IMG/VR virus record: IMGVR_UViG_3300028571_002339
Coordinates: 1-57,821 of that record
Reading direction: 5' to 3' (one strand)
Length of the DNA stretch: 57,821 nt
Origin: a virus
Below the pieces are notes generated by a model, which worked only from the letters and a program-made list of their open reading frames with translations, was not told the DNA's origin and made no database searches. Position numbers and translations under genes: made by a program. Shown here one piece after another: positions 3,023 to 52,825 of this stretch (position 1 is the first letter of the stretch; each line of letters starts with the position of its first letter).

Positions 3023-5110
3023 ATGGAAAATATTTTAAAAACCTTTAATACGACTGACACTTGGCTTGATGTAGAGACTGTCGCAGCTCTTAAAAAGATA
3101 TCAAATAGAGCCGTAAGATTATCACTCAAAAAGAAAAACCCTGACGGGGTAAACAAGTACAATTATCAGACAGAAACCGTCAGAGGCGGAAGTGCATATA
3201 AGATTCAGCTATCCAGCCTTGAGGAAGAATATCAAATTAAGTACATCAAAGAATACTACGACAATTTGACCCTAGTCGATAATAAAATCGAACTACATAA
3301 TTTTCAGCCCAAACCTGAGAAAATAATATCAGAAGTTCAACGCAAAAAAGCACTTGCAAAATATGACCTGATAAAATTTTGGGAAGAATACAGAAAAAAT
3401 AAAAAAGACAATAATATCCCCAATAAAAACTCAGATAGAATGTTTTTGGAAAGCTACAATACAGGACTTTTGTATCCTGAGATTTTTGCTGTAATAAATA
3501 CAATCGGAATCGGCTCTCTTTATTCCTGGAAGAATGTAATTGATAAGAACTCGGATTGGACAGCACTTGTCGGCAATTACAAATATTCTTCAAACAAAGT
3601 TTACCGAACAAAATTAAAGGAAGAAGAAATAACGGTCTTTCTAAAAATACTTTTATCCCCAAATAGATTTTCGATAGGCAAGGCAATCGGCTTAACAAGG
3701 CATATTTTGGAAGAAAAGGGATTTGAAAATATGCCAAAAGAAGTGACCTTCAGGCGATATGCAAAGTGGTATAAATCTGCAAATTATGACAAATGGGTGC
3801 TCGCAAGAGAAGGTGCTAAAGCACTTAAGGACAGAGTGGAACCGTATATTGTCAGAGATATAAGCGTGCTTGAGCCTGGGCAGGTTTTAATTGCAGACGG
3901 ACACACCCTTAACTTCCAAGTGATAAATCCTTTCACAGGAAAACCTTGCCGTGCAACACTACTTGGATTCCTTGATTGGAAATCAGGCGGACTTGTTGGA
4001 TACGATATTATGCTTGAAGAGTGTACCCAAAGTATTTCTTCAGCACTAAGGAATGCAATTTTGCACATGGACCATATCCCGAGTTTTGTTTATCAGGATA
4101 ATGGCAGAGCTTTTAAGAGTAAATTTTTTAACGGCGATACGAAATTCGAAGAATTAGGATTTACAGGAGTTTATGAAAAATTGGGAATAAAACCTGTTTA
4201 TGCAACTCCATACAATGCTCGGGCAAAAGTCATCGAGCGTTTCTTTTTGGAATTTCAAGAAAGCTTTGAAAAACTGATACCAAGCTATATAGGGACAAGT
4301 ATTGAGAATAAACCAGCGTATATGAATCGCAATGAGAAGCTCCATAAGGTGATACACCAAGAAAAGGCTAACTTTATTCCGACTATTGAACAAGCATTAT
4401 CATTAGTCAGAGAGTGGTTAAACTTTAGACACTCCCAGCCTTGTCCGAATGTCCCTGGCAAATCAATTCAGGAAGTTTTGGACTTAATTCCAAAACAAAA
4501 TATTTGCGAAGAAACATTGGACGATTTAATGATGGCACAAGAGGTAAAACACATCGGCAGAAACGGTATAAGGTTCTTAAAATCCAATTATTTTAATGAC
4601 GAACTTTATGGTATCAGAGAAAAAGCGGTTATAAAATACAACCTGAGCGATTTAAGTTACATCAAAGTGTATTCAGTCAAAGGCGAATTTTTGTGCAGGG
4701 CTGACAGAGTTACTGCAACGCATCCACTTGCTTATCAAATGGGCGACATCAAGGATATTGAAGATTACAAACACAAAATCAAAAAGCAAAATCAACTTAG
4801 AAACAAAACAATGAAAGCCGTTAAGGAACATTTTGCACTTGAAGATATCGAACTTATTAAAACTAACCTTATTGAAAATACTTTGATTGATGACAATTCG
4901 GTAATAGAAGCCGACATTATCAAACCTGCAAAACCTGAAAAAGAAAAACTAACAGAAACTTATGTAAACAATAGACCTCGACCACTTTTTAAAGATAATT
5001 ACGAACGCTATGAGTGGCATATAAAAAATGGATGTGTCGGAGTTGACGATAGAAGGTGGTTTGAAGAGTACATAAAATCAGAGGAGTATAGAAATATATA
5101 TGCAGAATAA
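3023..5110 (+). CDS. MuA-superfamily DDE transposase
   Basis: A 695-residue protein. The N-terminal 70 residues form a Mu-type helix-turn-helix (LDVETVAALKKISNRAVR). A second DNA-binding region covers about 110-250. An rve/DDE catalytic core lies at about 285-410, with Asp292 in LIADGH, Asp359 in YQDNGRAF and Glu405 in KVIERFF. A Mu-type C-terminal domain follows with a polar tail. Length and layout match MuA-like transposases (about 650-700). All three catalytic acids are present, so it looks active. Its stop overlaps the start of the ATPase gene by 11 nt. The purine-rich GGAG upstream is about 13 nt from the ATG, a rather long spacing. Confidence 0.9.
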   Translation: MENILKTFNTTDTWLDVETVAALKKISNRAVRLSLKKKNPDGVNKYNYQTETVRGGSAYKIQLSSLEEEYQIKYIKEYYDNLTLVDNKIELHNFQPKPEKIISEVQRKKALAKYDLIKFWEEYRKNKKDNNIPNKNSDRMFLESYNTGLLYPEIFAVINTIGIGSLYSWKNVIDKNSDWTALVGNYKYSSNKVYRTKLKEEEITVFLKILLSPNRFSIGKAIGLTRHILEEKGFENMPKEVTFRRYAKWYKSANYDKWVLAREGAKALKDRVEPYIVRDISVLEPGQVLIADGHTLNFQVINPFTGKPCRATLLGFLDWKSGGLVGYDIMLEECTQSISSALRNAILHMDHIPSFVYQDNGRAFKSKFFNGDTKFEELGFTGVYEKLGIKPVYATPYNARAKVIERFFLEFQESFEKLIPSYIGTSIENKPAYMNRNEKLHKVIHQEKANFIPTIEQALSLVREWLNFRHSQPCPNVPGKSIQEVLDLIPKQNICEETLDDLMMAQEVKHIGRNGIRFLKSNYFNDELYGIREKAVIKYNLSDLSYIKVYSVKGEFLCRADRVTATHPLAYQMGDIKDIEDYKHKIKKQNQLRNKTMKAVKEHFALEDIELIKTNLIENTLIDDNSVIEADIIKPAKPEKEKLTETYVNNRPRPLFKDNYERYEWHIKNGCVGVDDRRWFEEYIKSEEYRNIYAE

Positions 5111-5789
5111 ATTTATTAAAACACAGAATGTAAAACGCTTTATATCATTGATGGATAACCTACAAAAAGCACCGCCGAATGTTCCAAAGATAGCCCTCGT
5201 GCATGGCGAATTCGGGCTTGGAAAGTCGCAAGCGATAATGTGGTGGGTTACAAATAATGATGCCATTTATGTTCGCTGTAACCATAAAATGAGTAGCCGT
5301 TGGCTGTTATCCGAAATAGTAAAAGAGCTTGACGAAGAACCTTGCAGGCAATCTTCGCAACTGTTTAGACAAATCGAGGATAAATTAAAAGCAGAATCCA
5401 AGGTGATAGTGGTTGATGAGATTGATTATCTTTTTACAAATACGCATACAATCGAAATATTGAGGGACATACACGATAAATTGGGAGTGCCGATTTTGCT
5501 TGTTGGAATGGGTTTGTCAAACAGAAAACTTCTAAAATATGGGCATATTAACGACAGAATTTTTGCGAAATTGAAATTTGAAAAAATCGGCAAGGAAGAT
5601 TTTAAAGAAATTATCTCAACGCTATCAGAAGTTGAGTTTACCGCCGAGGCAATAAAATATATCGAGTCTCGAAATCTTCAGTTCCGCCAACTTGTGAAAC
5701 TTATTAATAGAGCAGAAAATCTTGCAGATACTAATAAACTTAATCAGATTGACGAAGTAATAGTGAGGGAGCTATTTGATGAAAAATAA
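5100..5789 (+). CDS. MuB/TniB-like AAA+ ATPase of the second transposition module
   Basis: A 229-residue ATPase with Walker A GEFGLGKS (36-43) and Walker B VIVVDEIDYL (about 102-111), typical of the transposition target-selection and transposase-activator ATPases MuB and TniB. Unlike the prophage MuB it lacks an N-terminal HTH. The gene overlaps both the transposase upstream and the third protein downstream. By homology it loads on DNA and directs the adjacent transposase to targets. Confidence 0.85.
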   Translation: MQNKFIKTQNVKRFISLMDNLQKAPPNVPKIALVHGEFGLGKSQAIMWWVTNNDAIYVRCNHKMSSRWLLSEIVKELDEEPCRQSSQLFRQIEDKLKAESKVIVVDEIDYLFTNTHTIEILRDIHDKLGVPILLVGMGLSNRKLLKYGHINDRIFAKLKFEKIGKEDFKEIISTLSEVEFTAEAIKYIESRNLQFRQLVKLINRAENLADTNKLNQIDEVIVRELFDEK

Positions 5790-6456
5790 GGTTTTGAAAC
5801 TGGCAAAAAGACTTGGTAAATTTTCTGTCGAAGATATTTCACAGATTATTACTACCGATAAAAACCAATTGGAAGAAATTTTACAAGAATTATTATCTGA
5901 AAAATCTATACTTAAAAGAGCAGATAGCACTTATTTTCATCAAGAAAAGAGTAAAAAGAAAACATCAAAACTTCCGCTATTTTTTGAATTCAGGACAAAA
6001 GAAGAACTTGATTTAATAATTAAATGTTTTTGTGCCGAAGTTTCTGTTTCGAAAAGTGTAATGATATGCAGTATTTCAGAAAATGTAATCTCTACATTTA
6101 CCCAGTATTTTAGAAAAGTCATTTATGAAAACCAATTACTAGAATTAAATAATTACTTTGAAAATAATCCACAGCAATTCCGACTGAGAACTTTTTATGA
6201 AAAGCCAACTTATTTTTATTTTTATGAAAATAGATTGTTTGTAAGTGACAATGTCCTATTATCGCCTAACGGCTGCATTAATTTTAAACAAGACGAAATC
6301 AAAAAGTTTAAAATCCTCTATTGCAGAATTAAAAGAATATTGAGCCACAATACTAGGCGGATATTATTACATCATCATATTTCAGAGAGCCTGTGGCGAG
6401 ATTCTAAAAGCTTTGAAGAATTAGTCAATGATTTGCATCAATTGCTAACGGCTTGA
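5779..6456 (+). CDS. Uncharacterised winged-helix protein of the second transposition module
   Basis: About 225 residues. The first 60 look like a winged helix (LAKRLGKFSVEDISQII followed by KNQLEEILQELLSEK), then a lysine-rich linker and an aromatic-rich domain. I do not recognise the family. ATG 5779 is preferred to an overlapping TTG at 5776; a GAGGGAG site lies upstream. It overlaps the ATPase stop, so it is co-translated. Its position is that of third components such as TniQ in other A/B-type transposons, but no TniQ zinc motifs are visible. Its stop overlaps the 3' end of the convergent gene below. Confidence 0.6.
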   Translation: MKNKVLKLAKRLGKFSVEDISQIITTDKNQLEEILQELLSEKSILKRADSTYFHQEKSKKKTSKLPLFFEFRTKEELDLIIKCFCAEVSVSKSVMICSISENVISTFTQYFRKVIYENQLLELNNYFENNPQQFRLRTFYEKPTYFYFYENRLFVSDNVLLSPNGCINFKQDEIKKFKILYCRIKRILSHNTRRILLHHHISESLWRDSKSFEELVNDLHQLLTA

Positions 6457-7322
6457 AAATCAAACTTGAGATTATCCTCTACAGGTTGTAATTCTTCATC
6501 ATCAAAAACATCTTCTTGTATTATTTTACGGCGTTCTGGAGGTTTATTGTACAACTTATAAATATCTAATGGGATACGCATTTTTTTATTGTACATAAGC
6601 AACATAGCTTCTGCATATCCAAGAGAACCTGCCCTTCGCTCATTTGCGGTTCTGGATAATTCTTTTATGGAATATCTGCACATTTTTTCTTTAAAAATAT
6701 CATCATTAAGTTCGTTCGCATAGGCTGCAATTAATTTAGATACTCCTTTTAATATATTTGCCGACAATGAATTGATATCGCCCTCCCAAGTTCCGATACA
6801 AAGCCTCAGAGTTCTATCGAGATTATGAAAACCGAATTTTTTGTGTATATATTCTAAAGTCGATATGGCACAAATTCCGCCAATAACCTTAGTTGAGGTG
6901 AGAAATAAGTCATATGATTCTACCAAATCCTTTATTATAAGCTGTTCATCATTTCCGGCTTCAACATTTGCCATAAAAATTTCGTACGAAGTTAAAGATT
7001 TTACGTACTTTTGTTGGTTGGCAAAAATATCCGCTTCTTCTTGATAATCTAATTCATCATATATCATGCACCATACAGGAGTTTCACGTGATTCTGAAAC
7101 AGTCGCTACAATTTCAATCGTATGCTGCCCATTAAAAACATAGTTTATACCATCTCTTCTACTAACTTTCACTGGATTTATCTGACACAAATCAAAATTT
7201 GCGACTGCACGTTTAACATGTGCTTCAGACAAATTACGCTGATATTCTTGATTTGATACCAGGTTTTTTATCGGGATTTGCTCAAAATGTACATTTGGAA
7301 TAAATTGACTATACTCTTCCAT
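6438..7322 (-). CDS. ParB/sulfiredoxin-fold protein (DUF6551-like)
   Basis: A 294-residue protein. The first 110 residues show a ParB-like fold: QIPIKNLVSNQEYQR, then INPVKVSRRDGINYVFNGQH with the NGQHT loop in place of the GHNR/GERR box, followed by a helical domain. This pattern matches the DUF6551 family found in integrative elements. A GGAG lies before the ATG. It is the last gene of the serine-recombinase operon and overlaps its neighbour by one base. Its role is unknown. ParB-fold proteins bind DNA and nucleotides, so partition, regulation or a recombination accessory role are all possible. Confidence 0.65.
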   Translation of the reverse strand: MEEYSQFIPNVHFEQIPIKNLVSNQEYQRNLSEAHVKRAVANFDLCQINPVKVSRRDGINYVFNGQHTIEIVATVSESRETPVWCMIYDELDYQEEADIFANQQKYVKSLTSYEIFMANVEAGNDEQLIIKDLVESYDLFLTSTKVIGGICAISTLEYIHKKFGFHNLDRTLRLCIGTWEGDINSLSANILKGVSKLIAAYANELNDDIFKEKMCRYSIKELSRTANERRAGSLGYAEAMLLMYNKKMRIPLDIYKLYNKPPERRKIIQEDVFDDEELQPVEDNLKFDFQAVSN

Positions 7323-8248
7323 TATTTCTCCTCTACTGCTAATAATATTGCATTTATTGTGTATTCTAAATTTTTTAACTCATTTTGTAGTTTTATTTTT
7401 GCCTTACTTGAAGCTTTACAAAAATTTGCATTTGATAAAGTTCTATTTATGGAACTAATCCAAGAGGGAAGTGTTAAAGTCAGGCTTGATATTTCTGCAT
7501 CAGGGTCATAAGCTGGCATATCCTTGACTGATAATGTATCACTCCGCTTCGGGATAACCTTGCGCACACTTGAATATGGTATAAAAGTTTCATCATTATT
7601 ATTCAATTTATTTTTGACCGTATTAATTGCTTTGAATGGTTGTTTTGATAATTTTTTAATATTATATTGAGAAATTTTTACGTTCCCATTTAAAACGTCC
7701 GAAATGAATTCGGGTTCTTTATTTGATAGCGTATCTATTGATCTTGCATAAGCAGCATATTTTCTAACAGTCTTTGGAGAAAGATGGTATTCCTCACCCA
7801 ATTGTTCTGCTGTATTTTGCATGGATTTTTTTATTGTTGAGTTATCTTTATGGGCGATCTCCATTTCATTATCTTTATATTGATTTTTACCCAAAGGATT
7901 CCTTTTCCCAAGTATTTTTTCCATTTCGTATCTTTTTCCTATTAAATATCTTTTAGTCTCTTCCGAAATATTCCTGCGACCCAATTGGTTTGCACAAATC
8001 CAAGTTATAATTTCTTCTCTGGAATCAAAATCGACATATTGTACAAAAAATGGGATTTGTAATCTTGTACAAATTTCATAGCGATTATGTCCATCAATAA
8101 TTATGTTTTCCCAAACGCATAATGGTTCTCTGCAACCATCTCTGGAAATATTTTCCTCCAGCTGAATACGTTCATTTTTGCTTAAGGGTGGAATTAATTG
8201 CTTAAATCTTTCATCTATTTGTAACTTATAAATTTGTTTTTCTGCCAT
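7322..8248 (-). CDS. ParB N-terminal domain protein
   Basis: About 308 residues from the ATG at 8248 (GGAG five bases upstream; an earlier in-frame ATG at 8266 has no such site). Residues 10-110 form a ParB N-terminal domain with PLCVWENIIIDGHNRYEIC. A helix-turn-helix stretch follows (AEQLGEEYHLSPKTVRKYA) and then a C-terminal helical region. ParB-fold proteins of mobile elements act in DNA binding, CTP-dependent spreading or as nucleases. No ParA partner is encoded nearby. It is fourth in the serine-recombinase operon. Confidence 0.75.
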   Translation of the reverse strand: MAEKQIYKLQIDERFKQLIPPLSKNERIQLEENISRDGCREPLCVWENIIIDGHNRYEICTRLQIPFFVQYVDFDSREEIITWICANQLGRRNISEETKRYLIGKRYEMEKILGKRNPLGKNQYKDNEMEIAHKDNSTIKKSMQNTAEQLGEEYHLSPKTVRKYAAYARSIDTLSNKEPEFISDVLNGNVKISQYNIKKLSKQPFKAINTVKNKLNNNDETFIPYSSVRKVIPKRSDTLSVKDMPAYDPDAEISSLTLTLPSWISSINRTLSNANFCKASSKAKIKLQNELKNLEYTINAILLAVEEK

Positions 8249-8258
8249 TTGGACTCCA

Positions 8259-8621
8259 TTATTCATTTATTGAAAATGATTCTAACATATTAAATCTAAT
8301 AACATTTTGACTGGGAACGTTTTCGCCATAGATTCTATACGCTTTATTATCAACCCAATCGTTGCATAAATTTCTTAAATTTTTTATTAAAGAGGTACTG
8401 TATAGCTCAACAGATTTTTTATTATTAAATGAATTTTTGAAAACATAGTGAGCCTTTGTATCAGTTCTATCACTTGGAAGAACAGCCAAAGAACATTCTC
8501 CTGGATTTACCAATAGTAAAATATATTCAGGATTCCCAATTGAGTATAATGTATCTTTATGGATTCTGATTAGTGGTTTTTTAAGGTCGACTAAAATAGC
8601 AGGTTTTAGTGTTTTATTCAT
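8259..8621 (-). CDS. Small paralogue of the serine recombinase C-terminal module
   Basis: A 120-residue protein. Residues 20-100 (YILLLVNPGECSLAVLPSD and following) align by eye with the module in the next gene upstream (YVQILVNSEERKLAVRPCR) and with the recombinase C-terminus (YVEMLVNPSQNLFAVRPCS). AGGAAG precedes the ATG, which overlaps the previous gene. It looks like a shortened copy. No function is assigned; a DNA-binding or recombination-directionality partner is a reasonable guess. Confidence 0.6.
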   Translation of the reverse strand: MNKTLKPAILVDLKKPLIRIHKDTLYSIGNPEYILLLVNPGECSLAVLPSDRTDTKAHYVFKNSFNNKKSVELYSTSLIKNLRNLCNDWVDNKAYRIYGENVPSQNVIRFNMLESFSINE

Positions 8622-9273
8622 ATTTTACTTCCTCCGATTGAATAAAATTATCTTGTTGTTCTTGTCGATTATTTTCTTTATCTTTAATGCCAAAAACTGT
8701 ATAACCGTTAAATATATTTACTTGCAGTTGCTTACCATGTTCTTCAACAGGCAATCCAAACTGATTTTGCCATTGGGCAGGAAATACAGGAGTTCGAGAA
8801 GTTTTTGGTTTTTCACCTTCTTGAATTGTTCTTTGATAAATTTCGGTTGCCGTTAGGTCAAAAATGAATAAATACTCATTGCCGCTTTTGATTAATTTCC
8901 CAAGTAATTTATATCTGAACTCCGGATTCCAATCCATCAAGTCAACAATTTTGGCAAAGAATACTCGGCAGCTAATTTGCTTTGGCTTACGTTTGATCGT
9001 GCTCCAAGGGAAAGAATCTTTTTCATCTTCGCGACAGGGGCGTACAGCTAGTTTTCTTTCTTCAGAATTAACAAGAATTTGGACATAATCTACATGCGGT
9101 AGTCGCTTTAGACATGCAGTATTTAATGAAACTTTACTTCTATTAAAAGTTATAGAAGGTTCATGTAAATGGGCAAAATACTCGCCTCTTACAACTTGAT
9201 AGCCATCATAATTAAAATTAGAATCCTCAATAGCATCAAGGTTTTGTTCGTTGGTATTCCCATCTTCAGTCAT
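8614..9273 (-). CDS. Paralogue of the serine recombinase C-terminal module
   Basis: About 219 residues from ATG 9273 (GGAG upstream; the frame is open to 9297). The shared module covers about 45-135, with LVNSEERKLAVRPC, DWNPEFRYKLLGK and FIFDLTATEIYQ, each with a clear counterpart in the recombinase (LVNPSQNLFAVRPC, GWNPGYKYRVRG, IIFNMNETEIFI). A further shared block, PAQWQNQFG versus PSNWANTFG, lies nearer the C-terminus. The gene overlaps the recombinase stop, so the two are co-translated. It probably arose by duplication of the recombinase C-terminus. Function unknown. Confidence 0.65.
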   Translation of the reverse strand: MTEDGNTNEQNLDAIEDSNFNYDGYQVVRGEYFAHLHEPSITFNRSKVSLNTACLKRLPHVDYVQILVNSEERKLAVRPCREDEKDSFPWSTIKRKPKQISCRVFFAKIVDLMDWNPEFRYKLLGKLIKSGNEYLFIFDLTATEIYQRTIQEGEKPKTSRTPVFPAQWQNQFGLPVEEHGKQLQVNIFNGYTVFGIKDKENNRQEQQDNFIQSEEVKYE

Positions 9274-11134
9274 TTGTAATCTCCTGCTCCATATCACTTA
9301 TGATATTTTTTATATTATTTCGAACTTCATCGGAACTGGTTACATTTAGTTCTGACTGCAAATAAGGTTTACCTTCTTCATTTGTTTTCCATTCATCATT
9401 TTTGTTTAAAAGTGCAAGTTCACTAGCCTGCATTTGTCTGTAGTAATTATTCCCAAAAGTGTTTGCCCAATTACTAGGAAAGGCCATAATATCTTTATTG
9501 GGACCGTTGGTAAAAGGCTCTAGACCTTTTGGGAAAGAATTATCTGGACATTCTTCACCTTCATTACTTTTTATTTCTTTTTGCGAAATAAAAATTTCAG
9601 TTTCATTCATATTGAAAATTATTAAAATTTCATCATTTTTTTGCCTGCGGATTCCGCGTACACGATATTTATACCCTGGATTCCAACCAAATAATTCATA
9701 TAAAGTTTTGATATAAGCGGCACCGCTTACCCCTCGAGAATAATATAAACCATTCTCCACCCTTGCCCATTGCACTGCGTTCCTTAGTTTATCTGAGCAA
9801 GGTCTTACTGCAAATAAATTTTGACTTGGGTTCACTAGCATTTCAACGTAAAGAACTTTATCAAACTTTCGAACGCATTCTGTGCTAAATTGTATGTTAT
9901 CAGGTGAAAATGTTACACATATTTTTTGGATTGTGTCGAAGAATTGTGAACGAGCCACTTCAAATTTGCGCAGGTCAAAATCTCCTGAATTAGCTTCTAT
10001 GTCTAAGTTTTCTGATAAATCCTCCCTTGCTTCAAAAACACTTTCAGATGCATCCAAATAGTCTTTTGCCTTAAATGCTGCCCATCTTGGATTTATTGAA
10101 ACAAAACCTTTTAGTGCTCCGTCATTCACAACTTTTAATTCGGGTAGGAAACCTTTATGTCCATATTTTGCATTACTTATTAATCTTTGTACGGCAATAA
10201 AATCGTCCCTAATTATAATTGCCTCGTGGTTATTTCTTTTTCTGTATTGATTTCTATCTTGCCTATTTCTTCTTGACTTATGGTCAAGATAATTTGGAGT
10301 CCAAGTTTTTCTTGCAAGTACATCCCCACAGTGACGTTCATTCTGAAGGACTTGTAATATTGTATTTGGAGACCAAGTCGTGTTACCTTTTTTGGTTGTA
10401 CATCTTAGATCAGTAAGGGTGTCTGCTATTTGTTGACAAGTATTTCCATGAAGATACATAAAGAAAACAAGGCGAACTATTTTTGCTTCTTCTTCATTAA
10501 TAACAAGTTTTCCGTCCTCATCTATATCATAACCCAGTAACGGTGGTGTTAAAAAAATACCTCGCCCAAAACGCATTTCAATAGAAGAATTCATAATATC
10601 ACTTTTAATATGTGATTCTTCTTGAGCCAATGTAGCCATAAAAGCTAAAATCATTTCACTATTATTATCTAGCGTATAGATATTTTCTGTTTCAAAAAAA
10701 ATACCAACTGGAGGCTGTAATTGCTTCAACTCTCTTGAATGACCGATGCAATCAACAACATTACGGGCAAAGCGACCTACGCTTTTTGTAACTATCAAGT
10801 CAATTTTTCCAGCATTACAGTCTTCTATCATTCTGACGAACGAATCTCTATGCCTAAGTGATGTTCCAGATATACCCTCATCAGCGTATATTTCAATAAG
10901 TTTCCAACCCTTATGCCTGTTAATAACATCCATATAGTGATTTTTTTGCAGCTCATAGGATGATGTTTGCCTTATATCATCAGTTGAAACACGAGCATAA
11001 ACAGCTACACGTTTTTCTTTTGTGTCTTCATGCAGATTAACTTGTGGAATCATAGGAATTACATCTAATTCGTCAAGACTAACGCCTTTGTACCTTTTTC
11101 GTATTTTTTCTTTTTTAGAGTCTGAATAATTCAT
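9266..11134 (-). CDS. Large serine recombinase
   Basis: A 622-residue protein from ATG 11134 (the frame is open to 11167, but only 11134 has a purine-rich GGGA upstream). It has a resolvase catalytic domain with VAVYARVSTDD, nucleophile Ser50, and the conserved DEGISGT and KSVGRFARN motifs. A recombinase domain spans about 200-330 (GYDIDEDGKLVINEEEAKIVRLVF). A long C-terminal module is repeated in the next two genes. No zinc ribbon was seen. Such enzymes catalyse unidirectional integration or transposition. It could have mobilised the left accessory block or the whole element. Confidence 0.9.
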   Translation of the reverse strand: MNYSDSKKEKIRKRYKGVSLDELDVIPMIPQVNLHEDTKEKRVAVYARVSTDDIRQTSSYELQKNHYMDVINRHKGWKLIEIYADEGISGTSLRHRDSFVRMIEDCNAGKIDLIVTKSVGRFARNVVDCIGHSRELKQLQPPVGIFFETENIYTLDNNSEMILAFMATLAQEESHIKSDIMNSSIEMRFGRGIFLTPPLLGYDIDEDGKLVINEEEAKIVRLVFFMYLHGNTCQQIADTLTDLRCTTKKGNTTWSPNTILQVLQNERHCGDVLARKTWTPNYLDHKSRRNRQDRNQYRKRNNHEAIIIRDDFIAVQRLISNAKYGHKGFLPELKVVNDGALKGFVSINPRWAAFKAKDYLDASESVFEAREDLSENLDIEANSGDFDLRKFEVARSQFFDTIQKICVTFSPDNIQFSTECVRKFDKVLYVEMLVNPSQNLFAVRPCSDKLRNAVQWARVENGLYYSRGVSGAAYIKTLYELFGWNPGYKYRVRGIRRQKNDEILIIFNMNETEIFISQKEIKSNEGEECPDNSFPKGLEPFTNGPNKDIMAFPSNWANTFGNNYYRQMQASELALLNKNDEWKTNEEGKPYLQSELNVTSSDEVRNNIKNIISDMEQEITND

Positions 11135-11208
11135 TTGTAATTTCCCTTGATACCTGTACTTATGCATATTTTAAAATTATAGAAAAGAATAATTTAAAAG
11201 AACATAGA

Positions 11209-11237
11209 CTGTAGGTCAAAAAAAATTTGACCTACAG
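11209..11237 (-). terminator. 12-bp perfect inverted repeat between XRE regulator and recombinase
   Basis: CTGTAGGTCAAA and TTTGACCTACAG form a perfect 12-bp stem with a 5-nt loop, just downstream of the XRE regulator stop and about 75 bp before the recombinase start on the same strand. It is probably an intrinsic terminator or attenuator that limits read-through into the recombinase. It could also be an operator. Confidence 0.55.
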
Positions 11238-11242
11238 ACAAA

Positions 11243-11581
11243 TCAATAATTATTTCGAAGACTCCTCTTCATTGCTGTAACAAGGTCAAAGATTACTTTT
11301 TTTTCATAATTATTGCAGTCTTCAATAATCCACATTAATTTAGATTTATATTCTAAAAATTCATTATCTTGATTCCCATTTAAAAGTGTAGTTGTTGGGA
11401 TTTCTAAAACATCGCCAATCTTCACTAAGGATTTCAAGCTAGCTTTCTTTTTGCCGGATTCAATCCGACTTATATATGAAGTCGATAGATTGCACATTTC
11501 GGCTAAGTTTTCTTGTGATAATCTTCTACTTCCTCTGAATTTTTTTACTCTTTCGCCTATAACTTTAAAATTTAAATCCAT
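11243..11581 (-). CDS. XRE-family HTH regulator
   Basis: A 112-residue Cro/C1-type protein with an N-terminal HTH (GERVKKFRGSRRLSQENLAEM and LSTSYISRIESGKKKASLKSL) and a short helical C-terminus. AGGAGG lies upstream of the ATG. It lies directly upstream of the serine-recombinase operon on the same strand, separated by a strong hairpin. The 78-bp gap on its other side contains palindromic A/T-rich sequence that could be its operator. It is the likely regulator of excision or the recombinase genes (inference). Confidence 0.85.
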   Translation of the reverse strand: MDLNFKVIGERVKKFRGSRRLSQENLAEMCNLSTSYISRIESGKKKASLKSLVKIGDVLEIPTTTLLNGNQDNEFLEYKSKLMWIIEDCNNYEKKVIFDLVTAMKRSLRNNY

Positions 11582-11659
11582 CTAGCCTCCTTTATACTGT
11601 ACCAAAACGGTTCTATATATAGGAATACCAAATGGATAATTAACAGTAAAATTCTATAT

Positions 11660-11827
11660 ATGCAACCAAGAAATTCTAAAAAAGGAAAAATTATTTATAA
11701 AGTTTTGGCAGATGTTATTCAGGACTTACGAAAAGAACAAAGCAAGTCCCATATGACATTATCTAACGAATATGACTATCCCAAATCACTTTTAGGTCGT
11801 ATTAAAAATGATGAAATAATTATTTAA
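11660..11827 (+). CDS. Small divergent ORF, truncated HTH-like
   Basis: A 55-residue reading frame divergent from the XRE regulator and ending over the stop of the next minus-strand gene. The segment VLADVIQDLRKEQ plus YDYPKSLLGRIKN resembles the start of short XRE-type HTH proteins but stops before a full domain. No clear ribosome binding site is visible. It is either a remnant or a Cro-like micro-regulator. Confidence 0.35.
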   Translation: MQPRNSKKGKIIYKVLADVIQDLRKEQSKSHMTLSNEYDYPKSLLGRIKNDEIII

Positions 11828-12153
11828 AACAAAATTTCCTCAATATATTTTTTTAATCTTTGAACATCTGACTTGAATTCATCCCCTGCTGCAGATGCTT
11901 TGCTTCTGTAAGTTACGTGGTAACAAAGTCCTTTTGGTGTGTTCATTTCTGAATAAGGGATTGAGTAAACTAGCTCCCATTTTTCATCTTTCAAAAGATA
12001 TGCCCTTACGTAGCATTGTTGGTCATAGGAATCCGATTTAATTTCGAGCTTTATTCGCTTTTCTTCTAGCTTATAAATTTCTCTAAAATTTATCGATTGT
12101 GAACCCTTATAAGTGATTTTTTCAATTGTTGTTTCTTTTATTTTTTTTGACAT
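11824..12153 (-). CDS. Hypothetical protein
   Basis: About 109 residues, starting at ATG 12153 (GGAG six bases upstream). Composition is charged, with alternating strand-like segments (KLEIKSDSYDQQCYVRAYL) and no signal peptide or membrane segment. I do not recognise a family. It lies in the small accessory cluster between the phage late operon and the recombinase operon, on the same strand as its neighbours. Confidence 0.55.
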   Translation of the reverse strand: MSKKIKETTIEKITYKGSQSINFREIYKLEEKRIKLEIKSDSYDQQCYVRAYLLKDEKWELVYSIPYSEMNTPKGLCYHVTYRSKASAAGDEFKSDVQRLKKYIEEILF

Positions 12154-12219
12154 GGCATTCTCCTTAAGTTCTCTATTCATGCTGGTTTAGGATTGGGGCA
12201 AATTGGAGCAAAAAATTTT

Positions 12220-12408
12220 TTATACTTCCACTGGAGTTATGTTATCCATCGCGGTATTGTATTTTTTACCTTGAGCATCAACGCAGGTTGCAAAATCTAC
12301 TTTGCCGTCAGCGTAAACGTTAATCCAAGTTGATATTAACAATCCAACTTCTTGTTTTTTGTGGTTGTAAATTTTAGTTCCGTACATTGTGTAATCTTTA
12401 GATGTCAT
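12220..12408 (-). CDS. Small hypothetical protein
   Basis: Sixty-two residues from ATG 12408, chosen because GGAG sits just upstream; the frame stays open to 12474 but that region is inside a strong palindrome. The sequence is beta-rich (YGTKIYNHKKQEVGLLIST) with one cysteine and no recognised family. Its 5' leader carries the perfect 22-bp inverted repeat at 12448-12499 and resembles the leader of the DUF4268 gene upstream. Confidence 0.5.
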   Translation of the reverse strand: MTSKDYTMYGTKIYNHKKQEVGLLISTWINVYADGKVDFATCVDAQGKKYNTAMDNITPVEV

Positions 12409-12447
12409 AATTTTATCTCCTTTGTTTTGTTTATCTACAATGACATT

Positions 12448-12499
12448 AATCACTCGCAATAGTCCGAATTGCAAGCTATTCGGACTATTGCGAGTGATT
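12448..12499. repeat. 22-bp perfect inverted repeat in a gene leader
   Basis: Positions 12448-12469 and 12478-12499 are exact reverse complements with an 8-nt spacer. The repeat lies upstream of the small gene starting at 12408. Sequence on both sides (TGACATTNATC and CTCGCAATAG, then GATTCAGACACA or close variants) recurs at about 13340-13405 upstream of the DUF4268 gene, where the palindrome is degenerate. Regulatory binding site, RNA hairpin or recombination site are all possible. Confidence 0.6.
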
Positions 12500-12517
12500 C
12501 AGACACATTGTTTTTTG

Positions 12518-13312
12518 TTATAGGTATTTGCTAAAAGTAGCTTGGAATTTTTGAGCTAATTCAATATGTGCTTTTATTGCTTCTTCTATTTTTGATTCAT
12601 CTGTAACATCAAATCCTATTGTTTTTCTTATTTTTGAGGATTTTTTATTCACCTCGTTTATCCAATCAAGAGTTCCTAGTTCTTTTTCAATTTTTTGCTG
12701 TTGTTTTTCCAGATTTTCAAATATCGATTTATCTTTGTTTATAAGAAGATCCACACAAATATATGGAACATCTGTTCCTACAGATAATTGCAGGCAAACT
12801 CCTGCTTTTCCCATCGGAATATATTGCCAGTGCTGTGGTTTTGGGTTTACTTGCATATCCGAACCGATTTCATCGCAGATTTCAAAATATCTTTCCCAAT
12901 ATTTAAGTTGAATTTGTTTTGCCTTACCTAGACTTTGTGATTTTTTATCAGGTTTTAAAAGGCATTTAAACCCTATTTTATCGTTGTTTAGAGAGGCTTT
13001 AAAAATAAAAACTCCAAAGTCTTTATTTGAAAATTTATTTAAGGTTTCTGCTGCCGTGATTAAATTTTCTCGCTCGTTTGCAACAATCCAAACTATAAAA
13101 GGTGATTGCGGTAGATTTTTGATTTCGCTCAGGGCATTGATAATCGTTTCAGGATTTTGTGTTAAATCTGCAATCGTAACAATTGCCTTGCCGTTCGCTT
13201 TTGGATAATCAGCAAGCACCGATATGATTTCAGGTGCGTTGTGATTTGCCATAAATTCTTCAAAATTCTTTTTACTTTTGAAGGCATCTTGAGGGATAAT
13301 TTTTTCTGTCAT
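12518..13312 (-). CDS. DUF4268 domain protein
   Basis: About 264 residues from ATG 13312 (AAGGAG upstream). The C-terminal half has the DUF4268 pattern: KYWERYFEICDEIGSDMQVNPKPQHW, a short beta segment ending in CVDLLIN, then LEKQQQKIEKELGTLDW and KKSSKIRKT. The N-terminal half is a Rossmann- or nuclease-like alpha/beta region (KAIVTIADLT, SPFIVWIVANERENL). DUF4268 often ends proteins linked to restriction-like or DNA-interaction roles. The function here is unknown. It is in the same small cluster as the antirepressor-like gene. Confidence 0.6.
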   Translation of the reverse strand: MTEKIIPQDAFKSKKNFEEFMANHNAPEIISVLADYPKANGKAIVTIADLTQNPETIINALSEIKNLPQSPFIVWIVANERENLITAAETLNKFSNKDFGVFIFKASLNNDKIGFKCLLKPDKKSQSLGKAKQIQLKYWERYFEICDEIGSDMQVNPKPQHWQYIPMGKAGVCLQLSVGTDVPYICVDLLINKDKSIFENLEKQQQKIEKELGTLDWINEVNKKSSKIRKTIGFDVTDESKIEEAIKAHIELAQKFQATFSKYL

Positions 13313-13339
13313 ATTTTTCTCCTTATATTTTTTGACATT

Positions 13340-13405
13340 GACATTCATCCCTCGCAATAGCTTTCAATTAAAGTCTTTTAGTCTATTCTGAATCATTTAG
13401 ACACA
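13340..13405. repeat. Second, degenerate copy of the leader element
   Basis: This leader shares blocks with 12440-12510: TGACATT, ATC, CTCGCAATAG and, on the far side, ATT, AGACACA. The central palindrome is eroded. It precedes the DUF4268 gene on the minus strand, as the first copy precedes the 62-residue gene. Two genes in the same accessory cluster therefore share an upstream control region. Confidence 0.45.
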
Positions 13406-39191: not shown

Positions 39192-41012
39192 TTAAACATT
39201 AACTTCTTGATTTCTAAATTGCATTTCGTATAAATGTTTATATTGCCCATTTTCTTTTTGGATTAATTCTTCATGCGTTCCCAATTCAACTAATTCACCC
39301 TCATTTATTACTGCAATCCTATCTGCATTTTTAATAGTAGAAAGTCTGTGAGCTATAATGAATACGGTGCGATCTTCCACCAAATTATCCATTGCAGCTT
39401 GAACTATTGCTTCTGATTCGTTATCTAATGCAGAAGTTGCTTCATCCAAAATTACAATTGGAGCATTCCTAAGCATTGCCCGAGCAATTGCAACACGCTG
39501 TCTTTGTCCGCCAGAAAGAGTTAACCCTCGTTCACCAAGCATCGTCTCTAAGCCTTCAGGTAATTCTTGCATCATATCCTGCAAATGTGCTGATTGTATT
39601 GCTTGCATTACTTGATCCGTTGTGGCATCAGGATTTCCCATAAGAATATTTTCTTTTATAGTTCCAGAATACAAAAAATTATCTTGAAAAACCATTGAGA
39701 TATTGCGTCTTAATGATTTCAATGAGAAGTTTCTTATATCAACTTCGTCTATTTTTATTGAACCTGTCTTGATATCATAAAAACGTGGAATTAAATTAAC
39801 CAATGTTGACTTTCCGCCACCTGAATTTCCAACAATTGCGAGTGTTTCATTTTTATTTACAGTTAAAGTTAAGTTTTTTAAAACAGGTTGATCTGGAGTA
39901 TATTCAAAAACTATATTTTCAAATTTGATGTTATTATTTAAACTAGTCATTTTGATTGGTTTTTTGCAATCTGCAATATTCGGTTCTAAGTCAAATAATT
40001 CAAATACACGCCCCATTGCAACAAAGATATTTTGAATACCAGCTAATGTTCCGCCTAAAGTTTTTACTGGTTTATACAATAATAATAAAGAAGTTACAAA
40101 AGAAGCAAATGATCCTGCTGTCATATTACCAATATTTATTAAATATGTACCATAACCTAATACAATAGCAATACCACATGATGCAATCAAATACATCAAG
40201 GGTGACATCCAAGCTGTACGTTTTAGTAAAGATATGCCAATATTATATCCTTCCAAGAGTTGCTCTTTAAAATATTTTTCGTGTCTCTCTTGTAATTCAT
40301 AAGCTGCCATCACTTTGTTACCACCATATGTTTCATTCATATTAGTAGTAATTTTACCACCGATAACCATATTTTTATTAGAAGTTTCTTGTATTAGTTT
40401 TCTAATTAAAGCAACAGGAATAAAGGCAATGCAAAGAACCAATACACCAATAAAAGCAAGTTTCCAAGAACTATAAATCATTACTAAAATTAAACCTAAT
40501 GCTCCACAAGTAGCAGTTGTAATAGTTTTTATATTATCTACAATTCCTGCAGATGCAGCAGCAGGATCGCCAACATATCTTGCAAGTATAATTCCTGAAG
40601 AATTTTCATCAAAAAATTGAGGGTGCATATGAATCAAGCGATTGAACAAATCAAATCTTACATCATTAGTTATATGGGCACTTGTCCAAGCGGATAAATA
40701 TTCATTTAAATATCTTAAAACACCTTGAATTAAAGCAAACATAACAATTCCAATAGGAATAAGAAAAGACATTTCAAGCGATGTTATGTTTAAAGAATAA
40801 TTAAAGGCACTAAGCTCAAAATTTTTACCACCGATAACGAAATCCATATAAGGCTTTAAAGCAAATGCTGTAACACCATCAAGTAAACCTAGTGGTATCG
40901 CAATTAAAAAACCTAAAAATATTCTAAATAAGTATGGCTTAATGTATGGGAATATTCTTAATAATAACCATTTATATTCAAATGAATTTGCTGTTGAGTT
41001 ATTTAATTTCAT
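39192..41012 (-). CDS. MsbA-like ABC exporter (fused TMD and ATPase)
   Basis: A 606-residue half-transporter. Six transmembrane helices occupy about 20-330 (IFLGFLIAIPLGLLDGVTAF and others). An ATPase at about 360-600 has Walker A GNSGGGKST, the LSGGQ signature, Walker B VILDEATSALD and a switch His in IAHRLSTI. The family exports lipid A or lipid-linked glycans across the inner membrane. It is the last gene of the minus-strand sugar operon and overlaps the FkbM methyltransferase by 14 nt, so it probably exports that operon's product. Confidence 0.85.
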   Translation of the reverse strand: MKLNNSTANSFEYKWLLLRIFPYIKPYLFRIFLGFLIAIPLGLLDGVTAFALKPYMDFVIGGKNFELSAFNYSLNITSLEMSFLIPIGIVMFALIQGVLRYLNEYLSAWTSAHITNDVRFDLFNRLIHMHPQFFDENSSGIILARYVGDPAAASAGIVDNIKTITTATCGALGLILVMIYSSWKLAFIGVLVLCIAFIPVALIRKLIQETSNKNMVIGGKITTNMNETYGGNKVMAAYELQERHEKYFKEQLLEGYNIGISLLKRTAWMSPLMYLIASCGIAIVLGYGTYLINIGNMTAGSFASFVTSLLLLYKPVKTLGGTLAGIQNIFVAMGRVFELFDLEPNIADCKKPIKMTSLNNNIKFENIVFEYTPDQPVLKNLTLTVNKNETLAIVGNSGGGKSTLVNLIPRFYDIKTGSIKIDEVDIRNFSLKSLRRNISMVFQDNFLYSGTIKENILMGNPDATTDQVMQAIQSAHLQDMMQELPEGLETMLGERGLTLSGGQRQRVAIARAMLRNAPIVILDEATSALDNESEAIVQAAMDNLVEDRTVFIIAHRLSTIKNADRIAVINEGELVELGTHEELIQKENGQYKHLYEMQFRNQEVNV

Positions 41013-42123
41013 TTTCTACTCCAATTTTGATATTAGACTTTGGAACTTCTGCTAATAATGCAGTTTCGACAAAAATATTGGTTATTGAAGGCTTGGTAAT
41101 TTTAAACTTATAGCCCAAATTCCAACTTTCAATTAAAGGTTTTATTTTAAAGAAATCCTCAGCATTATGATAAATTGAAATATTTAATGCCGGTTTTTGG
41201 GATTTTATTGTATTAATCGCACCTTGCAACAAATATCTTTCAGCTCCTTCTACATCAACTTTTATTAATCCAACCTTGATATCATGTTGTTTTACAAAAT
41301 TATCTATTGTCGTAAAATGAACTTTTTCAATATTGGAACCACTATTTCTATAAGAATTTATAGATGTAGACTGTCCTGCAATACCAGCGACATAAATATC
41401 CTTGTCAGTTTCTTTATCTAATAATCCTAGTTTTACTGGGATTACATTTTTTAGATTATTAATTTCAATTGTTTTAGTTAAAGATTCATAAAGTTTACTA
41501 ACGGGTTCAAAGCTATAAACATTATCTGATGTAAGCCTTGAGAACAATACTGCTGAATCACCAATTGAGGCACCTGCATCTATTACACTTTTTGAAAAAT
41601 CAATATTGTCAAATTCTTTTAAATTATGTTCGTAGTAGAAAACTGATGAATCAAAAAATGAATTTGGTAATAAATAATCTTTGTATGCCCAAATCTCTTT
41701 ATCCACTTGCACAATAGATTTCACAAAATTTGCTTGCAAATTTCTTAATTCGGATAATTCCTCGTTACTAAGAAAATAAAAGCGATTGTTAGTATTTTTC
41801 AATTGTTGTATTCTTGCTAAAGCTTTTTGAACATTCAAAACACTTTCATCATCTAATCCTTTTATTAAATTTAAATAATCATCTTTAATGTTAATTTTGT
41901 TTAAATAAGGATAAAAATCATTGGATAATATAACTGGTTCATCTAATAAATCCATGATATTATTTTGTATTCGACATAATGAATCACTTTTTAAATTAAC
42001 TTCTGTAATTTTATCAAGTATTAAATTTGATAATTTAAGTTTAATTTTTAAACCTAAAATAGTTATAACTTTGTGACCATTTTGATTTTTAATAGAAAGT
42101 ATCGTATTTAATAGTTTTTTCAT
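40999..42123 (-). CDS. FkbM-family methyltransferase
   Basis: A 374-residue protein from ATG 42123 (GGAG upstream; the open frame continues to 42210, inside the previous gene). The N-terminal 90 residues are an uncharacterised region. The methyltransferase core has VIDAGASIGDSAVLFSRL (SAM binding), FEPVSKLYESL, FTTIDNFV and VDVEGAERYLLQGA. FkbM enzymes O-methylate sugars or lipids. It could cap or decorate the glycan made by this operon. It begins one base after the radical SAM gene's stop. Confidence 0.85.
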   Translation of the reverse strand: MKKLLNTILSIKNQNGHKVITILGLKIKLKLSNLILDKITEVNLKSDSLCRIQNNIMDLLDEPVILSNDFYPYLNKINIKDDYLNLIKGLDDESVLNVQKALARIQQLKNTNNRFYFLSNEELSELRNLQANFVKSIVQVDKEIWAYKDYLLPNSFFDSSVFYYEHNLKEFDNIDFSKSVIDAGASIGDSAVLFSRLTSDNVYSFEPVSKLYESLTKTIEINNLKNVIPVKLGLLDKETDKDIYVAGIAGQSTSINSYRNSGSNIEKVHFTTIDNFVKQHDIKVGLIKVDVEGAERYLLQGAINTIKSQKPALNISIYHNAEDFFKIKPLIESWNLGYKFKITKPSITNIFVETALLAEVPKSNIKIGVENEIK

Positions 42124-42124
42124 T

Positions 42125-43366
42125 TTAACTCCATTCCGTAATTTCTTTTTTTGATATAGCAAATTTTTGTACTTTTCTATTTTTAATATCACAATATTTG
42201 CAAAAATCACTTCTATGAGTGCAGAATTCAGCTATTTCTTCATAAGAGTTGGCTTTATAAATATCGATATAGTCATTTTCTGTTACCTCTAAATTTTGAT
42301 TAAAATGCTTATTAAAATAGCCAACATAAGGTATAAATGGACAGGTATATATTTTACCGTGTCTTAAAGTTATACTTTCATTAAATTGATAACAAGATAC
42401 ATACTGGTATTTTTCAACATTCCCTTTTAAATCAAAAGGGTGATGAACAGAGAGTTTATCAATATCTTTACCAAAATATTTATTTTGTCCGGCTTCATTT
42501 GGATTTACTTTTCCGATTTCAACAAATCGTTCATATTTTAAACCATATTGTTTTGCTTTTGTATCAATTTTTTGAAAATCTAATTTTACAGGATATGATG
42601 TAACCATCAATGTTACATCATAATCTTTCATTGCTTGCCATAAATTACCATTTTCACAATTTTCAAGCTGTAATAATAAAATTCCGTTAGTAAAGAAAAA
42701 TATTGTAGATGTTGGGAATTTTTCTCTTGTTATGCGCATAAAATCTATTAATTGTGGGTGTAGAGTTGGCTCTCCACCTTGAATTTTAAAAATGCCCATT
42801 TCGTTATTCATTAATTCTGCAAGACGAGACATATCTTTTTCAAATTCATTAATATCAAGTAACTTTTTATCTGCAATCGGTGAAAAATGATCACAACATT
42901 GGCAATTTAAATTACAGTGGTCTGCAATATTAACTTCTAACCAAAAATTTTCTTTTGAGCGTGGAGTCATTTTATGAGGAATAGTTCTTTTATTCCATTC
43001 TGTCATAAAATATATTTCATCAAATCCATATTTTTTAAGTTGGTTATATGTCCAATTACACATATAATCTTCATTACCGACAATAACACAGGTATCACGT
43101 TGAATTCGTCTTGTTTTATGAAAAATATTTGATTTTGCGACTCTGTCATGAGCTTGCTGCAGAGTATATACTGGTTTGGCTGCATTAACAATCTGATCAT
43201 TATTATCAATCAAAAAGCCTTCTACCACTATATCACACGATTTTAAGAATTTTTCAAGTAATATCTGTGAACATTTACAGTCATAAATAAAAACATGTTT
43301 ATGTTTCCCACAATATTTTACTAAGTCTTCAACTTGAACTATATTTGGGTTATCATTATTAGCCAT
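42125..43366 (-). CDS. Radical SAM protein
   Basis: A 413-residue enzyme. An N-terminal PglD/Rossmann-like region (HVFIYDCKCSQILLEKF, CVIVGNEDYM) is followed by a radical SAM domain with the CxxxCxxC cluster in NIADHCNLNCQCCDHFSP, then IFKIQGGEPTLHPQL and FFTNGILLLQ. Its C-terminal cysteines (CPF, C-x6-CKYC) may bind an auxiliary iron-sulfur cluster. Related proteins modify sugars or amino groups in surface-polysaccharide clusters. The substrate is unknown. It starts at the end of the upstream glycosyltransferase-like gene. Confidence 0.85.
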   Translation of the reverse strand: MANNDNPNIVQVEDLVKYCGKHKHVFIYDCKCSQILLEKFLKSCDIVVEGFLIDNNDQIVNAAKPVYTLQQAHDRVAKSNIFHKTRRIQRDTCVIVGNEDYMCNWTYNQLKKYGFDEIYFMTEWNKRTIPHKMTPRSKENFWLEVNIADHCNLNCQCCDHFSPIADKKLLDINEFEKDMSRLAELMNNEMGIFKIQGGEPTLHPQLIDFMRITREKFPTSTIFFFTNGILLLQLENCENGNLWQAMKDYDVTLMVTSYPVKLDFQKIDTKAKQYGLKYERFVEIGKVNPNEAGQNKYFGKDIDKLSVHHPFDLKGNVEKYQYVSCYQFNESITLRHGKIYTCPFIPYVGYFNKHFNQNLEVTENDYIDIYKANSYEEIAEFCTHRSDFCKYCDIKNRKVQKFAISKKEITEWS

Positions 43367-44588
43367 TATGTGCTCCTATTAATTTATTTGTATCTTTTAT
43401 TTTATTCAATTTAGCGATGACGTCATCTATAATCAATTTCTCATCACTGTATTTGTTTACATCATATTCAAAAATAATTTCATTATTCACATTCGGTAAT
43501 TTTTTAATTGAAAAACCACTTAAAACTTTACTTGATTGAATTCTTTTAAACCCAGGACGCTTAGGAAAATCTGTATAAAAAGCAAATAAAGGTACTCCAG
43601 ATTGTGATAGACATTCCAAGAAGCCACTCCTTAAACCGATAATAGCTTTAGCGTATTTTGAAAGTTCTATAGCTTCTTCATATGTTAAAAATGCAGATTG
43701 AGTTCCTACAACTAAATTTCTAAATTCCATTGAGTTGCAAAAAACTTCATAGCCTAAACTTCTAAATTTTTTACATAAATTTTCCCAAAAATCTTTTTCC
43801 ATTGGTTCATTACTTAATGTTTCAGGAGATATAAAAATGAAATTATTGTTCAATATATAATTCGCAATGTTATTAATTTTGTTTTTTGTTTCAGGAGATA
43901 TTGAAAAATTTGAAAGACTGCAGTATTTCAAATTTAAATGTTGTTTTAAGCATTCATAATAATGTGCGTTATTATTTCTAATTTTATCTTCAGTTTCTAT
44001 GAAATATTTTTCACAAGTTGGAATATATATCGTTTTAGATTTGTAATTCATTTTTATTTTATTAATTGCTCTGGAAACTAAAGGGACATTTACTTTTTTA
44101 ACATAAACCATGGGAATATGAGGGAAGAACATTTTGCATATATTTAAATGATATTTTGCTGTAAAAATAAGAATAAAATTTTTAGATTTATTATTTTCCA
44201 ACCACTGTGCAAAATGGTGCATTAGTAAATAAAATTCACCGCTACGAGAAAGAAATATATAATAATCGTCATATTCATCATATTTATTTAAAATTTTATC
44301 TAAAAATTCGTTTTTGAATTGCCCAGTTGTCTTTTTTATCCAAATTGGCAATGAGAATAAATAAAATATTTTATGTGAATTTTGTAGCTTACTTTGAAAA
44401 AAACGAAAACCAAATACTCTTAAAGTAAAAATGTGTTCGTCTTTATTAAATTTAAAGTAAATTAAATTTAATAATAATTTAATTTTAACTTCCGAATCTT
44501 CTTTATCGATGGATTTGCTGTATATGGTACAACCGCAAATTTTTACTTTGAGTTTTCTTTTTTCTTTTTTCACTTTAATTATTTGCAT
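43359..44588 (-). CDS. Glycosyltransferase-like protein (first of two long paralogues)
   Basis: A 409-residue protein with a GT-B-like layout. The N-terminal region is unrecognised. The C-terminal half has FIFISPETLSNEP, a central FWENLCKKFRSLGYEVF and IGLRSGFLECLSQSGVPLFAFYTDFPKRPGF. The last block is the donor-binding type seen in heptosyltransferase-like and related enzymes. It resembles 44579-45802 and, in its C-terminus, 48666-49721. Role: probably a sugar transferase in envelope glycan synthesis. The exact family is not established. Confidence 0.6.
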   Translation of the reverse strand: MQIIKVKKEKRKLKVKICGCTIYSKSIDKEDSEVKIKLLLNLIYFKFNKDEHIFTLRVFGFRFFQSKLQNSHKIFYLFSLPIWIKKTTGQFKNEFLDKILNKYDEYDDYYIFLSRSGEFYLLMHHFAQWLENNKSKNFILIFTAKYHLNICKMFFPHIPMVYVKKVNVPLVSRAINKIKMNYKSKTIYIPTCEKYFIETEDKIRNNNAHYYECLKQHLNLKYCSLSNFSISPETKNKINNIANYILNNNFIFISPETLSNEPMEKDFWENLCKKFRSLGYEVFCNSMEFRNLVVGTQSAFLTYEEAIELSKYAKAIIGLRSGFLECLSQSGVPLFAFYTDFPKRPGFKRIQSSKVLSGFSIKKLPNVNNEIIFEYDVNKYSDEKLIIDDVIAKLNKIKDTNKLIGAHNG

Positions 44589-46791: not shown

Positions 46792-46800
46792 TTTACCCCC

Positions 46801-47166
46801 CTATAGTTGTGCATTTATTTTATAATTAATCTCTAATTTTTCATCACGTTTTTTATTGATTGCATAAGCTGTTTTTAGTCCTGATGGCTTTTCATCATTG
46901 ACTAAAATCCGCTCACCCATGGGCATATCACAAATCAAATTATTATAACGTAGGTTATTTTCTTTCAAAAATTTAATTAAGCATTCAAGATGTTCAGCTT
47001 TTCTTGCTGTCAAAAGAATTATTTTATCTTCAGGGTTAAGACTATCAAAAAAATCTCTTACTCCATCTAATAAAATGTCACCGCCATTTAGGTGTCCATT
47101 GTGTTTTAATAATGTCCCGTCGACATCTATTATCCAAGTTTTTGCCAAAGGAGATAGTTCAATCAT
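46801..47166 (-). CDS. HAD-type phosphatase (capsule/sugar-phosphate type)
   Basis: A 121-residue single-domain HAD hydrolase. Motif I is TWIIDVDGTLLKHNG (nucleophile Asp and acid/base Asp), motif II is KIILLTARK, and motif III/IV is the GERILVNDEKP segment. It resembles capsule biosynthesis phosphatases. In context it would dephosphorylate a sugar phosphate such as Kdo-8-P or an aldose-1,7-bisphosphate. It starts on the heels of the nucleotidyltransferase (GGGAGG upstream). Confidence 0.75.
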   Translation of the reverse strand: MIELSPLAKTWIIDVDGTLLKHNGHLNGGDILLDGVRDFFDSLNPEDKIILLTARKAEHLECLIKFLKENNLRYNNLICDMPMGERILVNDEKPSGLKTAYAINKKRDEKLEINYKINAQL

Positions 47167-52817: not shown

Positions 52818-52825
52818 TTTTCCTC

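Follow-up and report, generated by a model that had tools for sequence, protein, structure and literature searches.

Organization of the Cassette in the Window

The window, that is, the whole stretch of DNA analyzed here, is a 57.8-kb IMG/VR virus record (57,821 nt). The minus strand carries five genes between positions 11167 and 6438, in the order SR-P2-P3-P4-P5, with overlaps of 32, 8, 8, and 1 nt between successive open reading frames. The first one, SR (9266..11167), whose start is either 11167 or an in-frame ATG at 11134, encodes a serine recombinase of 633 aa that matched the Pfam Resolvase (E 4.4e-24) and Recombinase (PF07508, E 1.9e-22) families and in which the YARVST and SVGRFARN motifs are intact. 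The catalytic Resolvase domain (PF00239, residues 54–196, 10580..11008), with its nucleophile serine and arginines, is followed by the “Recombinase” DNA-binding domain (residues 225–331, 10175..10495) and then by a C-terminal module without CxxC (residues 393–598, 9374..9991), recognized by hhalign to P2. P2 (8614..9297, 227 aa), recognized by the module match and from its AF2 model, is a free-standing version of this module with a C-terminal extension, and P3 (8259..8621, 120 aa), recognized by hhalign to P2 and SR, is a second free-standing version, shorter and more diverged. The last two genes encode P4 (7322..8266, 314 aa), with the ParB-like motif IIDGHNRYEIC, and the ParB-like P5 (6438..7322, 294 aa), with the motif NGQHT. 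A gene for an XRE (RstR-like) regulator (11243..11581), whose homologues lie upstream of SR in the relatives of the cassette, stands at its head on the same strand. We could thus confirm the serine recombinase and the overlapping operon described in a first-pass annotation made from the sequence alone.

This annotation had also described the last two products as ParB-fold proteins. The description is supported at the family level for P5, which belongs to DUF6551 (Pfam PF20188, E 1.1e-28) and matched PHROG 1033, “ParB-like partition protein” (E 1.6e-12), as well as, weakly, DGQHR (E 2.7e-5). A protein of this DUF6551/DGQHR/ParB-fold group is found here constantly in an operon with a serine recombinase. 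The description did not hold for P4, since the window protein had no Pfam match and none of 73 homologues (0/73) matched a ParB model at E ≤ 0.01, so that its ParB label comes from the motif only.

In the window, the cassette is convergent with another gene set (3023-6456), the last gene of which overlaps P5 tail-to-tail by 19 nt. This set encodes a MuA-like protein (rve, Mu-transpos_C), a TniB-like ATPase, and a 226-aa protein of unknown function, and constitutes a second transposition set, the Mu-like phage of the window having separate MuA/MuB genes at 51939-54778 (transposase at 52826-54778). The 3023-6456 set was found beside the cassette in none of the relatives that we retrieved. Further along (620-2943), two ThsB-like TIR-type proteins surround a 459-aa protein that weakly resembles TIR effectors; these genes, which adjoin the second MuA, are possibly defense cargo. 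Two small genes (12220-13357) lie upstream of the XRE gene; as their homologues precede the cassette in locus L019, they may travel with it there. Finally, a low-GC block (39192-49721) with sugar-phosphate isomerase, nucleotidyltransferase, and transporter-like genes lies beside the genes of the Mu-like phage.

A Module Shared by Three Proteins Stands in Place of the Zinc Ribbon

The similarity between the C-terminus of SR and P2 was detected by BLASTP (E 1e-25), with a score reached by none of 500 shuffles (0/500). The same was true of P2 and P3 in Smith-Waterman comparisons (z = 7.0, 0/500), and SR and P3 gave z = 4.3 as single sequences (1/500). With profiles built from 7 sequences each, hhalign recovered the three relationships (SR/P2, E 1.9e-25; P2/P3, E 1e-8; SR/P3, E 9e-9), so that the two free-standing copies proposed by the first-pass annotation survived profile alignment. 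The LVNxxxxxxAVRPC-type block that it had noticed in all three proteins is present in SR (LVNPSQNLFAVRPC) and in P2 (LVNSEERKLAVRPC); the corresponding stretch of P3 has diverged and reads LVNPGECSLAVLPSD, the RPC end being missing.

The N-terminal half of SR is of a known type. The closest solved relative of its catalytic domain was 3g13 (E 1e-53), and Foldseek grouped this half with serine integrases, the best matches being SPbeta integrase complexes (E 1.7e-13). Among 123 SR homologues, the YxRVS catalytic motif was kept in 122 and a zinc-ribbon-type CxxC after residue 330 was missing in 122 (122/123 in both cases), whereas the ordinary recombinase pairs that neighbor the cassette in phages retain CxxC. 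In the AF2 model of SR, there were no paired long helices and the module occupied the tail position. The C-terminal zinc ribbon with its coiled-coil insertion is thus absent from SR, and the shared module stands there. The first-pass annotation had spoken of free copies of the DNA-binding or coiled region of the recombinase; what has been copied is neither the zinc ribbon nor the coiled coil, the module being found at the place expected for these domains.

Structure prediction had been put forward as a way to check the module. The AF2 model of P2 (pLDDT 80.8) had no significant match in the PDB: sliding clamps accounted for almost all of the 50 Foldseek matches listed, with E values of 0.01–0.08 and TM scores around 0.15, so that the likeness to PCNA-type clamps is a lead only. 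In a viral fold library, the model reached a probability of 1.00 with uncharacterized phage proteins only, the best being Gp105 of Lactococcus phage KSY1 (E 1.2e-4), whose gene adjoins that of an RNase HI.

Two relatives of the cassette differed in architecture. The recombinase of L011, a distant relative, is 331 aa long and ends after the DNA-binding part, without the module; it is followed by a separate 276-aa module protein and then by a further module gene. The module, being encoded by its own gene, is thus a separate subunit there. The truncated recombinase and the separate module of this locus (10674-12504) lie downstream of a RepA-like AAA ATPase gene. In L014, a Subdoligranulum plasmid, we recovered SR and two module genes, and P4/P5 were not recognized downstream.

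Conservation and Distribution of the Gene Set

An initial viral scan with a single P2 sequence gave no match. P2 later matched 20 phage records, mostly Ca. Heliusvirales from the human gut, whose hosts are mainly Lachnospiraceae, and a homologue was present in at least 16 Ca. Heliusvirales/Heliusviridae phage records. In the eight phage regions that we inspected, all five genes recurred, in unchanged order and with similar sizes, annotated as hypothetical. The phage in the window does not belong to this group; it is Mu-like. A scan of 84,980 genomes yielded 80 loci, mostly in Clostridia, and a viral scan 51 loci. The closest relatives of the window cassette (78–82%) were found in a Kiruna bin and in Melainabacteria/Gastranaerophilales, the cassette of the Melainabacteria standing alone between host genes. 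The carriers comprise Ca. Heliusvirales phages, Tn554-like elements, and bacterial chromosomes in which the cassette stands alone.

Nearly all loci retrieved with P2 exhibited the order SR-P2-P3-P4-P5, the exceptions being mostly contig ends; a few lacked P3 or P4 according to the profiles used. Because these loci had been retrieved through P2, the conservation test was repeated with P5 as bait. Among the phage contigs obtained in this way with enough upstream sequence, SR, P2, and P4 were present in 49/49 and P3 in 48/49, the set being complete in 48/49. The gene set is practically indivisible. The first-pass annotation had named in advance two outcomes that would speak against it, loss of the motif match upon profile alignment and a gene set not conserved elsewhere; the match persisted and the set is conserved. 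The five genes that it had grouped do belong together, although the list was incomplete, since 98 of the 102 testable loci had an XRE homologue upstream of SR, at a distance of at most 1.5 kb. All five genes are under purifying selection, with dN/dS between 0.00 and 0.22 for the pairs that allowed its computation (0.08–0.15 between the window and L016). We did not find a description of this gene set in the literature searched. The nine published core genes of Heliusvirales lack the cassette, and the main text of that study names no recombinase or integrase (PMC9226167).

Over 72 dereplicated loci, the distance matrices of the SR module and P2 were correlated (0.80; partial correlation 0.53), whereas the partial correlation between the catalytic half of SR and P2 was 0.08. 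The specific co-variation of P3 was small (partial 0.16–0.18). Such correlations do not prove contact; as the SR module tracks P2 rather than its own catalytic half, they indirectly support a complex of SR and P2 as plausible.

Defense-Related Neighborhood

The carriers of the cassette are unrelated types of elements and its distribution can be sporadic, with 4 of 191 genomes in one family. Both features would fit an anti-phage or superinfection-immunity system in which the recombinase acts on incoming DNA while P4 and P5 sense or bind this DNA. Genes for C5-methyltransferases occurred within 10 kb of the cassette in 7 of 39 genomes (about 0.5 expected) and those for N6-methyltransferases in 5 of 39 (about 0.65 expected); combined, restriction-modification-type methyltransferase genes reached 12/39 for about 1.1 expected by our own estimate (Poisson). 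In addition, McrBC-like genes lie beside the cassette in L016, a type III restriction-modification system lies beside it in L081, and the ThsB-like TIR genes are present in the window. The methyltransferase excess supports a home in defense-rich or mobile regions and not, by itself, a defense function: restriction-modification genes ride the same mobile elements, and some of the loci counted are prophages with their own restriction-modification genes. Furthermore, PADLOC matched none of the five cassette proteins, and there is no evident effector beyond the recombinase. We thus consider a defense role unlikely.

The Cassette as a Unit

Two pairs of loci, L093/L094 and L029/L034, were 95.7–95.8% identical over the cassette only (∼5.3–5.5 kb), their flanks being different or far less alike, which indicates that the cassette spreads as a unit. 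In L016 and L018, a lone cassette lies between host genes. The number of standalone cassettes is however soft, since some loci with “no pair nearby” (G005 and G011) turned out to be prophages with the pair of ordinary recombinases tens of kb away. These observations could be explained by a small mobile element, SR integrating and excising the 5-kb unit with the other genes as integration accessories. Against this, the ends of the lone cassettes, even though marked by sharp identity borders, shared neither a terminal sequence nor a core nor inverted arms, nearest relatives included, and no empty site was detected in 79 Butyrivibrio-group genomes or in 146 genomes of the family of the Kiruna bin. 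Self-mobility is therefore improbable in our opinion.

Settings in Phages and Candidate Attachment Sites

The XRE-SR operon and the early genes of Heliusvirales are oriented divergently, and the operon faces two ordinary large serine recombinases that form a pair. It has this divergent orientation in phage PV036410 and in prophage G013, where it lies in the lysogeny region. Prophage G013 is inserted in comEC, and about 2.4 kb separate its cassette from one of the junctions. The 3′ part of comEC begins at the same T-G-L-H motif in seven loci, two of which are phage records. Heliusvirales prophages inserted at this comEC motif were seen in L040, L045, L050, L051, L052, L009, and L010, and the phage genomes PV036435 and PV036442, deposited as “complete,” retain host comEC at one end. 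The comEC junctions cannot be assigned to SR as its attachment sites because the Heliusvirales prophages carry the ordinary pair.

The cassette was also found at one end of 20–22-kb insertions in cpaF (G001–G003). In various gut Firmicutes (L042, L043, L046, L055, L147–L155), elements of this size interrupt genes for cpaF/TadA-type ATPases, always at one and the same codon. We first took the cpaF insertions, with their precise junctions and inverted-repeat attP, as proof that SR is an integrase. This was rejected because the G001 element also holds a Tn554-like tyrosine-recombinase trio (tnpABC), at the end opposite to the cassette, and because the ∼6-bp core varies between 99.4%-identical elements. 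Consequently, no attL or attR could be assigned to SR, a second recombinase being present at every cpaF and comEC junction found.

One could nevertheless imagine that SR is the phage integrase and that the adjoining ordinary pair serves for something else, e.g., inversion. The cassette has the usual position of a phage integrase, beside the repressor, and in prophage G005 it is also beside the junction: some 280 bp lie between the end of P5 and that of the flanking comEC gene, and in the circular form the junction would fall between P5 and the ordinary pair. However, it is the pair that retains the zinc-ribbon architecture of known integrases, its end lies at the opposite host junction in G005, and lone cassettes persist without a phage, all of which makes an integrase role of SR quite improbable.

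An inversion switch, or a dimer-resolution or partition module, is very improbable: a serine recombinase and a ParB-like protein do occur together, and the orientation of the XRE gene varies (12 loci divergent, 86 co-directional), yet no inverted repeat that is both long and strong was seen on the flanks of these genes in the window, and lone chromosomal copies would need no partition.

Discussion

Ordinary large serine integrases are prized for working as a single protein, whose zinc-ribbon/coiled-coil tail sets the direction of the reaction and the choice of sites. We propose that the product of the cassette is instead a site-specific serine recombinase made of several subunits, with SR, P2, and P3 sharing the function usually carried by the zinc ribbon and coiled coil. 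We give this reading about an even chance and rank it first, before an anti-phage or superinfection role and, third, self-mobility. SR would provide catalysis and the standard recombinase DNA-binding domain, its tail region being replaced by a different module that is also supplied in free form as P2 and P3. SR would form a mixed complex with P2, and probably with P3, whose make-up would decide the pairing of sites and the direction of the reaction. P5 and P4 may bind DNA or regulate assembly, and the XRE regulator would control the set.

Several observations weigh against a multi-subunit recombinase. The second, ordinary pair can explain the integration of Heliusvirales; the variable cpaF cores and the lone-cassette ends provide no attachment site assignable to SR; and the co-variation of P3 is weak. 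It had been suggested that the free copies could form a complex or tune recombination. The co-variation analysis favors the former in the case of P2, while a tuning of integration is not supported, given the ordinary pair and the lack of attachment sites assigned to SR. A more speculative version, to which we give little credence, is that P2 and P3, paralogous to the tail of SR, are interchangeable free subunits that set its site choice and direction, and that phages and chromosomes use the recombinase for something other than phage integration, e.g., rearranging or cutting invading DNA, possibly with the three modules arranged in a clamp-like ring.

The cassette can be compared with two known systems. 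Large serine integrases of the SPbeta YokA, phiC31, and A118 type have the Resolvase and Recombinase domains in the same order as SR, but SR has no zinc ribbon and no evident coiled coil, its module also occurs in two free genes, and the cassette has four conserved partner genes, whereas these integrases have at most one directionality factor. The Ccr recombinases of SCCmec are likewise large serine recombinases with companion genes, and the N-terminal half of SR matched the CcrB profile, although generically (E 1.7e-27) and far under the family cut-off (96 vs. 900 bits). Moreover, CcrA and CcrB are both catalytic, while the companions of SR have no catalytic domain.

What is new here is a recombinase with a catalytic core of a known type in which the defining zinc ribbon and coiled coil were tested for and are missing. 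The native tail has been swapped for another module, accompanied by two loose copies, and the set has been kept across large evolutionary distances. Should these proteins assemble into a complex, the cassette would provide a natural system for studying what imposes the direction of recombination and the choice of sites, and perhaps a source of recombinases that can be controlled. Meanwhile, annotated as hypothetical, it sits in the lysogeny region of a phage group that is very common in the human gut.
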